Shown piece after piece: positions 10,369 to 36,949 of a stretch of DNA of 64,000 nt (positions within the stretch are counted from its first letter, which is position 1; every line of letters begins with the position of its first letter). Both the position numbers and the translations under genes were made by a program. Source of the stretch: an uncultured Lachnospiraceae bacterium (GTDB lineage: Bacteria; Bacillota; Clostridia; Lachnospirales; Lachnospiraceae). The notes under the pieces were generated by a model that was given only the letters and a program-made list of their open reading frames with translations, was not told where the DNA came from and did not search any database. Location: assembly GCA_947169385.1 (NCBI GenBank), contig CAMVPR010000004.1, positions 1 to 64,000 on the forward strand, read 5' to 3'.

Positions 10369-10517
10369 CCACTTAGCAGCTCTATGATACATAAAACTCC
10401 TAAGAAGTCTCGGATTCATCTATACGAATGTATAAATATAAAGCCCGTATTAAGACATTATAACACTATTAAAAACATTTTTCTACTAAAATCTTAAGCG
10501 TAACAAAATATCTTTTT

Positions 10518-10592
10518 AAGATCCTTCGGAACGATGTTCCTCAGGATGACATGGGTAGTTTTGTCATTCTTAAGCGAGGCGAAGAATCTTTA
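10518..10592. repeat. Dispersed inverted-type repeat related to GATTCTTCGCTTCGCTCAGAATGACA
   Basis: aagatccttcggaacgatgttcctcaggatgaca...tgtcattcttaagcgaggcgaagaatctt; similar units at 26590 and 31600. Confidence 0.65.
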
Positions 10593-11339
10593 TACCATAT
10601 ACTTTATTATGCTTCTCATGTCCTCGATGTCAACCTGTCCCGGCGCCGACTCCTTCCCAACATTTGCAAATGTAATTGCATTGCCAAAAGCACCGACACT
10701 AAGCCTTGAAATCACCCCGAGCTTACCCATCGACATAGTTGCAACCGGCGTATCAGGATATCTCTCTCCAACCGAATAAGCCGAATCCAAAAGATTAATC
10801 ACATCCCTTGCACTGTTAGGCATAACCGCGAGTTTAGCAACATCTGCACCGCTCTTGATAAGCTTACCCAATATAAGAACAATATCCGTCTTCCCCGGAG
10901 TCTTGTCAAAATCATGATACGAAGCAATGACCTTAACTCCTTTATCCTGGATGGTCTTAATAAGGTTAGGCGTATCTTCATTAAAATACACTTCAACATC
11001 TATCGCATCAACAAGTTCCGACTCGGCTACACTCGTAATAATATCAGAATACACTTCATAGGTGACTTTCGCTTCTCCACCTTCTCTTGACGTTCTTATT
11101 GTAAACAACAAAGGAATATCCTTAACTATATTTCTGATGCTGTCTAAACAAGCAGTAAGCTTGGCTTTCTCATATAATCCGTCATAGAAATCCGCACGAA
11201 ATTCAATAATATCCGGAGTGTACTTAGATATAGAAAATGCCTGCATCCCTATATCATCCATATTGCGCCCCACTATCGGAACCGCAATCGCAGTATGTCC
11301 CCCTCCGATTATTGTATTTCTAATGTTAACATTTGCCAT
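10590..11339 (-). CDS. aroD: Type I 3-dehydroquinate dehydratase
   Basis: EFRADFYDGL, FTIRTSREGGEA, ASYHDFDKTP, AKLAVMP, MSMGKLGVISRL. Confidence 0.95.
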   Translation of the reverse strand: MANVNIRNTIIGGGHTAIAVPIVGRNMDDIGMQAFSISKYTPDIIEFRADFYDGLYEKAKLTACLDSIRNIVKDIPLLFTIRTSREGGEAKVTYEVYSDIITSVAESELVDAIDVEVYFNEDTPNLIKTIQDKGVKVIASYHDFDKTPGKTDIVLILGKLIKSGADVAKLAVMPNSARDVINLLDSAYSVGERYPDTPVATMSMGKLGVISRLSVGAFGNAITFANVGKESAPGQVDIEDMRSIIKYMV

Positions 11340-14479: not shown

Positions 14480-14509
14480 TTACATTTCCTCATAGATTCA
14501 TATACATCC

Positions 14510-14570
14510 CGTAGCGGCGAACATCGTTCGCCATTATGGAGCACGCTGTGCTCCGCTACGATTAAATAGA
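14510..14570. repeat. Full copy of compound palindromic dispersed repeat
   Basis: CGTAGCG-GCGAACATCGTTCGC-CATTAT-GGAGCACGCTGTGCTCC-GCTACG: outer inverted arms enclosing two hairpins. Confidence 0.85.
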
Positions 14571-30369: not shown

Positions 30370-30664
30370 AAAAAATCCCTATGTGTAACTAAATACACAT
30401 AGGGACGATTATTATCGCGGTACCACCCTAGTTCCCGACATAAGCCGGACACTTCATTAACGCTTAACGCGCGCGACTCGTAAGCTCCTACTATCAGTTC
30501 AAAGCTTAAGCTCCAACGTGAAATTCGATAATGCATAAGAACCTATCCAAACTTACAGCCGGTGATTCGGACTCTCTTTAGGGAAATGCATCTCTACTTA
30601 TCGTCTTCATAGCCTTTAAATATCTATAACTCTGATATTGTAACACATATTTTTGAGATGTCAA
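30370..30664 (-). promoter_or_regulatory. T-box leader of pheST with promoter and antiterminator/terminator
   Basis: AGGGTGGTACCGCG (RC of 30416-30429), terminator TCCCTATGTGTATTTAGTTACACATAGGGATTTTTTA (30370-30405), TTGACA-16-TACAAT promoter (30637-30664), candidate UUC specifier in GAATTTCACG. Confidence 0.95.
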
Positions 30665-31713: not shown

Positions 31714-31942
31714 GAAAAAGCAACGCTCATTGCGTTGCTCTTCTTTACTAAGATTATATCCCGAGGTGCCGGTTCCTATCTTTTGACGCCCTAGCAAAAG
31801 CCAGGTGGACATCCGCAAGTGAACCGCTATCTTCCACTCTATGGAGGCTTGATATTGGAACACCAATATAGGAATTCCTTTTCACGTAAATGTAGGTTCA
31901 AAATGATAGAAATTATCGAACACTCCAGGAAACCTTTTTGAT
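31714..31942 (-). ncRNA. ssrS: 6S RNA with own promoter and terminator
   Basis: Minus strand TTGCAA-17-TATAAT (31949-31977); RNA TTTCCTGGAGTGTTCG...TTTTGAACCTACATT...CCGGCACCTCGGGA with pairing 5'/3' ends, long imperfect rod; terminator AGCAACGCAATGAGCGTTGCTTTTT. Confidence 0.85.
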
Positions 31943-32066: not shown

Positions 32067-34607
32067 CTATTTTTTAGCAGCTTTTTTTGCGTTATTTTTG
32101 TTCTGTCTTTTCTCTTTTTGAGCCTCTGCATTTTGACCGCCATAAGTATTGGTAAATGTCTCAGGATTAATCGCTCCCTCTTTCTTAAGGTCGCCCTTGG
32201 TTCTTACATAATTAATTCTGTCAATCACCTTACCGATACGCTTGTTGGTACCAGGTGCATACTTAGAAACAATAGCAAGTGAATCAAGTGCATTATCAAA
32301 TCTCGCCTTACCATCATCGCTAAATCTTACTGATTTCTTACCTTTCATGTACTTAAAGGTAGCTTCAACAACATCGATATTAGCCTGTGCAAATGCAGCC
32401 GCCTTCTGCTTGTCGTTCATGTTAGCTGTGGTTGTAATAAGATTAGCTGCAGCCTCAACAGTCTTAGCCCATGCCTTATACTCATCACTTCTCTTGGCAG
32501 GATCCATCATGCTGTTCTTAAGTTTGGTCATATCCTCAAGATAGTTATTGTAAGAAGCAGGTTCAACACCATAAATCTTCTGTCTGATCTTATCTCCGGC
32601 TTCAATAGCAGACTGTGGAGTCGCAAGAATATCATCTAACTTGGTCTTATCAAGTCTGTCAAGCTCGTAAATCTCCTTGATAGAATCTGCAAGCTTATGA
32701 ATCTTATCGAGACTGAATTTAACAGGTTTAGGACTCATCTTTAATGAATAAGCAGCCAAGACTTTAGCAAAATTCTTAATCTTAGCGGCATCATCCTTGC
32801 CCTTGTGCTCGCCTGTATGAAGCTCCATGTAACGATCATAATTCACAGGATTAGCGTTTGCAGGATTAGCGTTCTTTGCCTGTTTATTGTTCTTTGCAGC
32901 TTGCTTCACCTCCTGTTTCTTCGCTTTCTTGGCGTCACTCTTATATCCGAGCTTACCTAATTCCTTCCAAATCTCATCAAACTTATCGATGCGTTCCTTT
33001 ACATTCTTATCATCCTGATTACATCCAAGCTTCTCCAAATCCTCTAAACACTTTTCAAACCCTGTGGTAGACACCTTAATGGTCTGCTCATGAGTAAGCT
33101 TTGTGTTTTTAAAGTGTTGCAACCTATCCGGTTTATTATTATTCTTAGCCCACGTAATGTTTGTATTACTGGTTTCAATTCCACCTTTGGCCGCTTCAAG
33201 GTTATCAAGAAACTTATCAGCATCTTTAAGAAGCTTATTTATGGCATCTTTTACTTTCTGAAGTTCTTCAGCGGCCTTTCTTTCTTCTTCTTTGATTCTA
33301 TCCTCTTCCTGTTTCTTAAGCTCTTCAGCCTTTCTTGCATCATCAATCCTCTTCTGTTTGGCATCTTTAGCCTTCTTAGGGAGATTATCAAAAGCATTCT
33401 TAGCCTCATCGGAAGTATTCATCCATTTTTGGAACGCATTCAGATTATTGGTTATATTGCCGTATTGACTCACCATAAAATATTCATTAATAACCATAAC
33501 CGCAATATTCTTCTTAAGCGCAGCATCAGCAGAATTATCCACACTGTCACGATACTTTATAGCTGCATCTTTAAGCTTAACAAGACACTCTTCAGTCTTA
33601 TTGCTTCCATCGTTCTTATCGAATTCAAGACCTTTAATGGATTTACTGAGGTTCTCCAAAGCTCTGTAAAAGTCAGCGTACTCCTTCGTAGCCCCGCTTA
33701 AATCCCCTCCGTCAAGAGCATTCAAAGCCCCTAAGCTCTTGCCACACATTTCTTTAATCCTGGCAGGACTAAAGAACAGGTTAGCAGAATATCCTTTATC
33801 AAGTTCCTCATCCTTACTCGAATTCTTATATTCAGACAATGCCTTATAATATTTATCTAACTTGTCATTCTTTTTATCAGCTTCTTTTTTTCTTATATTC
33901 TCTGTAGGTTTAGCCTCCCATTTACCACCAAGGTTAGCAAGTTTAGTAACAGTTTTGCCAATCTCAATCTCTTTTCTATGGTCCTTAAGAGATGTATTTT
34001 GATTCAAATCAGGATAATTCTCTTTGGCAAATACTTTAAGCTTGGTATCGGCAAATTCAGAAAGCCTGTTCAGATAATCAAGTTCCTTAGCAGCTCCGAT
34101 TCTATTTACAGATTCCGTAGCTTCTGCTATACGCTCCTTCACTCTTAACAAGCCCTCACGAACCTCAAATCTGGTAAGTCTGTCATTGAGATTACATATA
34201 TTGACCATCGCATTATAAAGACTTGAATTGACACCTAATTCGTGTGAAAAATTACCGGTTCTTACTTCCTCTATAAACTTATATAAATCAGTCTTAAGCT
34301 TCATGTACTCATTGTTCAAGTCATCTATCTGCGCTTCAACCTTCTCTAAAACCGTCTTTTTAATCTCGATAAGCGGCTTATCATAACGGATATTGAAGCC
34401 TCCGCCCGGCGCCTCTACTATTGTTATACCTAAATCCTGTTCATCCTTATCAATAGCGTCGCCTAAATGTAAATACTGATATTCCTGTCCATGATACTCG
34501 CCATTACTCTTGAACATCTTAGCATGCTCATTTTTTAAATCATCTTCATATGATTTTCTAAGTTCATCCTTAACCTTATCGTCCAATTTCTTAGGAAAAG
34601 CATCCAA
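32067..34607 (-). CDS. Lys/Asp-rich, helical hypothetical protein (likely 3' half of a larger gene)
   Basis: 846-aa ORF; only a TTG start without a convincing Shine-Dalgarno; in-frame codons upstream of the start join to 34625..36904 through a -1 shift. Confidence 0.75.
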   Translation of the reverse strand: MDAFPKKLDDKVKDELRKSYEDDLKNEHAKMFKSNGEYHGQEYQYLHLGDAIDKDEQDLGITIVEAPGGGFNIRYDKPLIEIKKTVLEKVEAQIDDLNNEYMKLKTDLYKFIEEVRTGNFSHELGVNSSLYNAMVNICNLNDRLTRFEVREGLLRVKERIAEATESVNRIGAAKELDYLNRLSEFADTKLKVFAKENYPDLNQNTSLKDHRKEIEIGKTVTKLANLGGKWEAKPTENIRKKEADKKNDKLDKYYKALSEYKNSSKDEELDKGYSANLFFSPARIKEMCGKSLGALNALDGGDLSGATKEYADFYRALENLSKSIKGLEFDKNDGSNKTEECLVKLKDAAIKYRDSVDNSADAALKKNIAVMVINEYFMVSQYGNITNNLNAFQKWMNTSDEAKNAFDNLPKKAKDAKQKRIDDARKAEELKKQEEDRIKEEERKAAEELQKVKDAINKLLKDADKFLDNLEAAKGGIETSNTNITWAKNNNKPDRLQHFKNTKLTHEQTIKVSTTGFEKCLEDLEKLGCNQDDKNVKERIDKFDEIWKELGKLGYKSDAKKAKKQEVKQAAKNNKQAKNANPANANPVNYDRYMELHTGEHKGKDDAAKIKNFAKVLAAYSLKMSPKPVKFSLDKIHKLADSIKEIYELDRLDKTKLDDILATPQSAIEAGDKIRQKIYGVEPASYNNYLEDMTKLKNSMMDPAKRSDEYKAWAKTVEAAANLITTTANMNDKQKAAAFAQANIDVVEATFKYMKGKKSVRFSDDGKARFDNALDSLAIVSKYAPGTNKRIGKVIDRINYVRTKGDLKKEGAINPETFTNTYGGQNAEAQKEKRQNKNNAKKAAKK

Positions 34608-34624
34608 AAGAGCATCTATAGAAG

Positions 34625-36904
34625 CTACCTCATCTTTTTACCAATAAGTCTTCCTACCTGTCCATAGATATTGTTACTAATCGTTACATCATTGGTAAAT
34701 CCAATAAGCTCTTCAGATTTATATATAGCGCTAGTCGCTTTCTGAACCTTACCAACCCTCTCAATCTGATATTTAAAGCGCAGATTATACATCGTCTTTA
34801 AGAAACTCTCCTGCTCATTCTGAGGTATGTATTTATCGAAGTATTCTTTAAAAATCTCTTTATGAAAATCCTCATTTCTTTCCAAGGCAACAATCTCCAT
34901 TTTAATCATAGCCTCGGCAAGTTCCTCATGGTTATCCTTAATTTTATCCAAATCAGCAAATACTTCCTTTTTGTATTCGCTGTCAAAGTTCTCTACCGTT
35001 CTGTCATACTCGAGCTGATGAGACTTAAATGCATCAACAACAACCTTGTCATCCACATATCTTCTAAGAAAATCATCAAAATCTTCTATACATGTTCTTC
35101 TCTCGATAGCATTTTTAGCATTTCTTAACTTGTTTTTGATGTCCGTTATTTCTTTTAATTGCTTATCGTACTCTTCTCCCTTTTTGTCAGGCTTGTCATT
35201 CACTCTTTCAAAAATATCATTGATAAGTCCAAAAAGGAATATATCTTTAGGATTCCACCCGTTTCTCAATGCCTCTCCCTCATAGGAAGCAATGTTTAAT
35301 GTATCAATAATGCTGTCATCAGCATCAGGCAGCAACATTGCCTTAATGGAAATGTCGGAATACTCATCGATTATGCCGGTATCACCCTCAACTATTTCAG
35401 CGATATTTTTCTCGTAACGATTAAGCGCATCAGAATACTCATTTGCAATCTTTTCCTCTTTTTCTGCGGTCCAGCCATCAATCTCAAAACGCTGTTTCTC
35501 ATATTCCAGTTTAAACAGCAATGTTATAGAGTGTACAAGTTCAAAATATGCTTCAAGCGCTTTTAAGTTATCTTTATCCGCGGCAATAGCATCATAGATT
35601 TCTTTCTGAGTCTTGTTGTTCTTACTGTTGGTAAACGGACCGTTCACAACAAAATCAAAATACTTCTTATACTGTGGCTTCTCCTGTAATAATCTTTTAA
35701 AATCTCCGGCATCGTAATCGCACAATACAGCCATGTCTTTATTAAATCCTCTAAGCTCAGTACTAAGATTATAATCACCTGCCGCATGCATAAAAGCAGA
35801 CCAGTATTCTCTGAGCTCATGCTTATTTCTGACAACTCCTACCGGAATTCTGTCAACAGTTACCGAATCGTCAAGATGCTTCTCCCTGGCAATCGATGCA
35901 CCGAACTTCTTAACATATCCAAGTTGAAAAGCAAGCTCATCTTCATTGTAATTCTTAGTGGTATTCTCAGGATGTTCACCCAAAATATACTTTCTGTACT
36001 TGGTTTCTTCGGTAAATTCTTTAGAAGGTCTTATAATCTGAAGCTCACCTTTAGCATCTTTCTGAGCCGAGAAACTGTAGTATTTAAAACTATCAGTGAA
36101 AATTTTCTTTGACAGTTCAGCAAATCTGATATCATCCTCATCACCTGATTCAGCACTCTTCATGGTTCTGAATACAGAACTGATTCGGTCCATTATATAA
36201 AGCTTCTGAAACTGGGCAAGCTGTCTTTGGCTGATATCTTTTCCAACATTTTTCTTAACATAATCTTCTATGTTAACATCGGAAACAACAAAGTTAGAAA
36301 CAATCATATCATCAGCAACTATTCTGTTATCAGGCATCTTGCCGTCATTCATTGCTCTGATAAATACTTCTTCATAGTTGGCCAAATTCTCAAACAACAT
36401 ATGAAAAAGCACATCTGCCTTCTCAAGGTCTGCAGGAGTAGCTTTATAAGAAAAGCTCGGAAAAATAGCAAACTCTTCCTTGTATGTATCTTTAGACTTG
36501 ATATATGCTTCCTCAAACATATTCATAAAATGCATCTGCATATCATCTTCGTCGTTTAAGATTTTAAGCTTCGCATCAATAGGCAGCTCATCATAACGCT
36601 CGCATAGCTCATCACGCTCTTTCTTAACGCGCTCACGCTCTTTAAGCTCATCCTTCATTATCTTATTGGCGGCCTCAACTCGCTTTTTTCTGGCCAGTTT
36701 CTCGCTTTCTCTGGCCTTGTCTTCCATCTCTTTCTTGGCTGCTGCTTTTCTTTCAAGTTCAGCCTTAACAGCCTCGTCTCTCTCATATATCTTTCTTCTC
36801 TTAATCTCAGCTTCCTGACGCTTAATCTCCCGATTATAGTCGTCTGCATTGAGCTGTTCCTTCATCTTTGACTTAATCTCATCTGTTAATACAAATTCTT
36901 TCAT
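34625..36904 (-). CDS. Coiled-coil-rich hypothetical protein (likely 5' half of a larger gene)
   Basis: 759-aa ORF; MKEFVLTDEIKSKMKEQLNADDYNREIKRQEAEIKRRK...; ends LIGKKMR*, with AAAAAG just before the stop. Confidence 0.85.
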   Translation of the reverse strand: MKEFVLTDEIKSKMKEQLNADDYNREIKRQEAEIKRRKIYERDEAVKAELERKAAAKKEMEDKARESEKLARKKRVEAANKIMKDELKERERVKKERDELCERYDELPIDAKLKILNDEDDMQMHFMNMFEEAYIKSKDTYKEEFAIFPSFSYKATPADLEKADVLFHMLFENLANYEEVFIRAMNDGKMPDNRIVADDMIVSNFVVSDVNIEDYVKKNVGKDISQRQLAQFQKLYIMDRISSVFRTMKSAESGDEDDIRFAELSKKIFTDSFKYYSFSAQKDAKGELQIIRPSKEFTEETKYRKYILGEHPENTTKNYNEDELAFQLGYVKKFGASIAREKHLDDSVTVDRIPVGVVRNKHELREYWSAFMHAAGDYNLSTELRGFNKDMAVLCDYDAGDFKRLLQEKPQYKKYFDFVVNGPFTNSKNNKTQKEIYDAIAADKDNLKALEAYFELVHSITLLFKLEYEKQRFEIDGWTAEKEEKIANEYSDALNRYEKNIAEIVEGDTGIIDEYSDISIKAMLLPDADDSIIDTLNIASYEGEALRNGWNPKDIFLFGLINDIFERVNDKPDKKGEEYDKQLKEITDIKNKLRNAKNAIERRTCIEDFDDFLRRYVDDKVVVDAFKSHQLEYDRTVENFDSEYKKEVFADLDKIKDNHEELAEAMIKMEIVALERNEDFHKEIFKEYFDKYIPQNEQESFLKTMYNLRFKYQIERVGKVQKATSAIYKSEELIGFTNDVTISNNIYGQVGRLIGKKMR

Positions 36905-36949
36905 TTCGTTATCCTCCTGATATATAATTATTTAATACTAAGCTGCCGC

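Follow-up and report, generated by a model that had tools for sequence, protein, structure and literature searches.

Two long open reading frames (ORFs) on the minus strand of the window (the whole 64,000-nt stretch of DNA that was analysed) are the halves of a single giant gene, which was probably inactivated recently by a net one-base frame change at 34637–34625, most likely in a run of five A residues, in a dispensable accessory copy. The ORFs lie in different frames at 34625–36904 and 32067–34607. The features of the gene and its surroundings are as follows.

36913..36918, minus strand: Shine–Dalgarno sequence AGGAGG, 8 nt 5' of the ATG of the N-terminal half, read from the sequence.
34625..36904, minus strand: N-terminal half (759 aa) of the broken gene, running from an ATG start to a TAG stop in the shifted region.
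34650..34655, minus strand: Shine–Dalgarno-like AGGAAG 5' of the A-run, with no excess over background.
34635..34639, minus strand: run of five A residues followed by G, giving an in-frame A_AAG tetramer (heptamer T_AAA_AAG).
34625..34637, minus strand: 13-nt overlap of both open frames, crossed by homologues without a gap.
34628..34631, minus strand: GAGG next to the TAG and 20 nt away from the TTG, read from the sequence.
32067..34637, minus strand: C-terminal half, 855 aa when read in the other frame from the GAT at 34634 and listed as an 846-aa ORF with a TTG start.
32070..32840, minus strand: conserved C-terminal domain of ~250 aa, predicted to be all-helical (pLDDT 93), with about 6–8 paralogues per genome.
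31754..31934, minus strand: 6S RNA gene (Rfam), 3' of the giant gene and separate from it.
30398–30619, minus strand: T-box leader (Rfam) 5' of pheS.

The original prediction, that the two ORFs are probably one gene of ~1.6k aa broken by a -1 shift, was examined by re-reading the minus strand. In the 0 frame the junction reads ...GGA AGA CTT ATT GGT AAA AAG ATG AGG TAG, and the end predicted for the 759-aa ORF, GGT AAA AAG ATG AGG TAG, was exact. A -1 reading from the A-run enters the frame of the 846-aa ORF with precisely the codons that had been written for it. This second frame has a TAA at 34640–34638, beyond which it stays open (AAA GAT GAG GTA GCT TCT ATA GAT GCT CTT TTG GAT GCT). Since the TAA closes the second frame, the two frames overlap only at 34637–34625, and as the frames read this is the only place possible for the frame change; any net one-base change within it would give the observed break. 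The predicted lack of a good Shine–Dalgarno sequence for the TTG start also held, as no well-spaced one was found for the TTG at 34607, the nearest being the GAGG at 34631–34628, 20 nt away.

Whole genomes were searched with each half separately and six uninterrupted homologues holding both halves, of 1704–1784 aa and from four lineages, were found. One is in the genome of the window itself (contig 12, 1731 aa) and one in NC2004 of the same genus (1704 aa). The others are in the sheep-rumen metagenome-assembled genome (MAG) RGIG6919 (1754 aa), the goat-omasum MAG RGIG2622 (1710 aa) and the named genomes C6A11 (1734 aa) and LC2019 (1784 aa). The halves in the window are about 35% identical to these proteins, and the N-terminal half matches residues 1 to ~780 of them. 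The two halves were entered as separate fragments in an alignment with the six intact homologues. At the junction the homologues read ...GRIVSENDGVTAADDL... and the window reads ...GRLIGKK in one frame followed by DEVASIDAL... in the other, with a gap of 0 and an overlap of 0. As the six intact proteins span the junction gaplessly, the comparison shows that the 759-aa and 846-aa ORFs derive from one ancestral gene, of which each is a half, and are no chance juxtaposition.

No stop, split or frameshift was found at the junction site in the six homologues. The alignment of relatives that had been proposed as a check thus gave a single protein of 1704–1784 aa across the junction in each of the six, none of them split. 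These proteins uphold the claim that a single gene was broken in or next to the A-run. The further claim, that the lesion is the loss of an A within the run itself, is plausible but is not established, because an A-run of at least five was absent from the junction site in all four homologues read at the DNA level. Either a frame-loss mutation or a sequence error would fit the lost base.

If the break is real, ribosomes would begin at the well-placed AGGAGG and ATG of the N-terminal half, cover 757 native codons and a changed end, Met-Arg, and then meet the TAG. The product would be a truncated protein devoid of the second half and of the conserved C-terminal domain, and the C-terminal half would then be largely untranslated. 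The copy appears to be dispensable. At the same locus in the sister strain NC2004 only the last 111 nt (~37 codons) of the giant gene are left, the start, Shine–Dalgarno sequence and body having been lost, while the flanks (histidine kinase, membrane protein, 6S RNA, BrkB-like protein, pheS and pheT) are kept at 88–90% nucleotide identity. Both genomes keep further family members, among them one that is intact and full-length. The NC2004 remnant (L035:8162-8365) adjoins the 6S RNA gene and is in frame behind an ATG (MKVLLGAINPET...) with no evident Shine–Dalgarno sequence.

The copy in the window forms the longest branch in both half-trees. It keeps 66% (N-terminal half) and 74% (C-terminal half) of the columns that are invariant in all others, while every other member keeps at least 85%. 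The long branch could alternatively reflect divergence of an ortholog and not relaxed selection. As for a frameshift pseudogene, the homologues are single ORFs across the break and the gene is dispensable in the close relative NC2004. There is one frame change only, no second inactivating lesion being found in the 4.8 kb, and the GC3 of both halves resembles that of neighbouring genes; the break is therefore either recent or absent from the real organism.

The second of these options, a sequencing or assembly error at the short homopolymer with the gene of the organism intact, ranks next after a recent mutation, although we consider it rather unlikely. The single lesion and the six intact homologues are what it would predict, and the assembly is of draft quality, with 81 contigs. 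A run of five A residues would, however, be short for an error if the sequencing used modern short reads. The loss of the gene from the same locus in NC2004, and the position of this copy as the most diverged, are also consistent with relaxed constraint and count against an error. In a survey of bacterial frame transitions, singletons validated by BLASTp were expected to be sequencing errors more than genuine indels (PMC3711429), which favours an error. The window resembles the 'hypothetical pseudogene or error' singletons of GeneTack (PMC3711429) in being a single shifted copy with intact homologues and an unconserved site, but it differs from a frameshift pseudogene of that kind in having one lesion and no further decay, and it may be either a pseudogene or an error. 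A recent inactivating mutation is nevertheless the reading that we favour.

A split into two functional genes, with the C-terminal half made by termination and reinitiation at the GAGG beside the TAG and then an AUA or the UUG, is improbable. The GAGG lies at a normal Shine–Dalgarno distance before an in-frame AUA as well as 20 nt before the TTG, and is a possible, weak reinitiation signal. Short proteins consisting mostly of the C-terminal domain do exist (285 aa at L047; 360 aa at L100). Against this, nothing pointed to a separate start, AUA initiates translation very poorly and the spacing to the TTG is far from optimal. With the GAGG 20 nt from the TTG and the split pair present in no relative, the arrangement is not that of translationally coupled genes.

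Slightly less probable still is programmed -1 ribosomal frameshifting on the A_AAG tetramer, with a shorter product of 759 aa and a longer one of ~1.6k aa, an option that the original prediction had offered. It has points in its favour. With a strong stimulator, no tetramer is more efficient in E. coli than A_AA.G, and the AGGA of the upstream Shine–Dalgarno-like element falls in the 6–17 nt range used for such elements in the same study (PMC4066793). The length of the read-through product matches the homologues exactly and the C-terminal half shows no decay. Like the -1 frameshifts of the dnaX and IS3 type, the site has an A_AAG context, an upstream Shine–Dalgarno-like element and the -1 direction; unlike them, it has no X_XXZ_ZZN heptamer (T_AAA_AAG is present), no downstream structure and no conservation in homologues. 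The homologues show no shift here, and the four examined as DNA lack any A-run of at least five at this position. For the 95 nt downstream, the folding energy is -13.2 kcal/mol and the shuffle mean -15.7 (z +0.90), so the RNA is no more structured than shuffles. In E. coli, tetramers without a stimulator shift at 0.147%, close to the background of 0.112% (PMC4066793). Shine–Dalgarno-like elements also precede five of the 21 in-frame A_AAG sites of the gene, and the whole broken gene has 19 A-runs of at least five (counting the one at the junction), so a random frame change beside one of them is unremarkable. The deletion of this locus in NC2004 also counts against the programmed option, which is not supported. 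Finally, a phase-variable homopolymer toggling the gene on and off is very improbable: the lesion is at or beside an A-run in a gene of a multicopy, accessory family, but five residues fall short of the 7-nt minimum from which the survey of frame transitions flags poly-A/T stretches (PMC3711429), longer runs (A6, A7) in the same gene are unbroken and such a run is missing at this position in the homologues.

The broken gene is one of a family whose ~250-aa C-terminal domain recurs behind differing N-terminal parts, about 6–8 times per genome in the genome of the window, NC2004 and RGIG6919. Of the 397 genomes sampled from the GTDB family, 13 encode proteins with this domain, as do several species that share a genus in a different family of the same order (loci L031, L036-L050 and L081-L093). 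The consensus of the domain contains YDxYIxLHTG, YxKGKxxVRxxxxGxxRFxNALDALAI, VDRINxVR and YGAxRA, followed by a basic tail. An AlphaFold2 model built with 14 homologues is all-helical with a mean pLDDT of 93, and Foldseek searches with it against the PDB and viral models gave no match at E ≤0.001. A low-confidence model of the N-terminal half (pLDDT 73) likewise gave no Foldseek match in the PDB. The Pfam, NCBIfam, PHROGs and PADLOC profiles did not recognise the family, these and a sequence search of the PDB giving weak chance matches only, and literature searches on the giant proteins found nothing.

Several other giant ORFs beside family members had no Pfam match. Clusters of consecutive giant ORFs (600–1800 aa, with starts such as MKEVD or MKEVE) were seen at L081, L085, L088, L092 and L037; those of their ORFs that were tested had no Pfam match and many do not carry the C-terminal domain. 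In another genome (G180, L098:5839-7320) a 493-aa family member lies just 5' of pheS, in a general neighbourhood like that of the copy in the window.

The full-length giant genes of NC2004 (L032:5432-10546) and RGIG6919 (L033:496-5760) are 96% identical over 5.2 kb, and their flanks are unmatched beyond ~100 nt. The pheST genes of these two genomes, which belong to different genera, are 72% identical. The difference between 96% and 72% indicates at least one transfer between genera, and by this comparison of sequences the event is a recent, gene-sized horizontal one. A search for a carrier found no relative of the giant gene in phages, plasmids or viral contigs. Transfer within the genus was also considered, from the low dS of paralogues in the genome of the window and NC2004, and was dropped since identity between these genomes is a mosaic (84–96%). 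The window (1–64000) is ~94–96% identical to the sister strain at 1–20 kb and 40.5–44.5 kb, 88–90% at 29–42 kb outside the giant gene and 84–87% at 45–60 kb, a pattern that suggests recombination. Two short intergenic stretches of the window, 10497–10596 and 14496–14568, match dozens of places in the sister strain (G004) at 70–100% identity. They appear to be dispersed repeats, possibly of the ...GAGCGAAGCGAAGAATC... type found in its intergenic DNA.

These observations support the existence of the family, its distribution and one between-genus transfer. BID-domain and XVIPCD proteins of type IV secretion combine a variable N-terminus with a constant C-terminal domain. The giant family similarly has a variable N-terminal region, a conserved C-terminal domain, a basic tail and many paralogues, but it has no Pfam or NCBIfam match and no fold match in the PDB, and the likeness serves only as a lead. 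We tentatively suggest that these giant helical proteins of rumen Lachnospiraceae form a family that is undescribed and moves horizontally, and that its PDB-unmatched C-terminal domain might be a docking or targeting module for the variable N-terminal parts; the docking role is a guess from the architecture.

For annotation, the pair of 'hypothetical proteins' is best merged into a single frameshifted gene and listed neither as two genes nor as a case of recoding. The frameshift itself is ordinary and looks like gene decay, and the giant unrecognised family is the more unusual part. The broken gene points to a family of proteins of 600–1800 aa, about 6–8 per genome in some rumen Lachnospiraceae, that family libraries do not recognise. 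That so large and accessory a family has been transferred between genera at least once suggests an undescribed function under ecological selection in the rumen.
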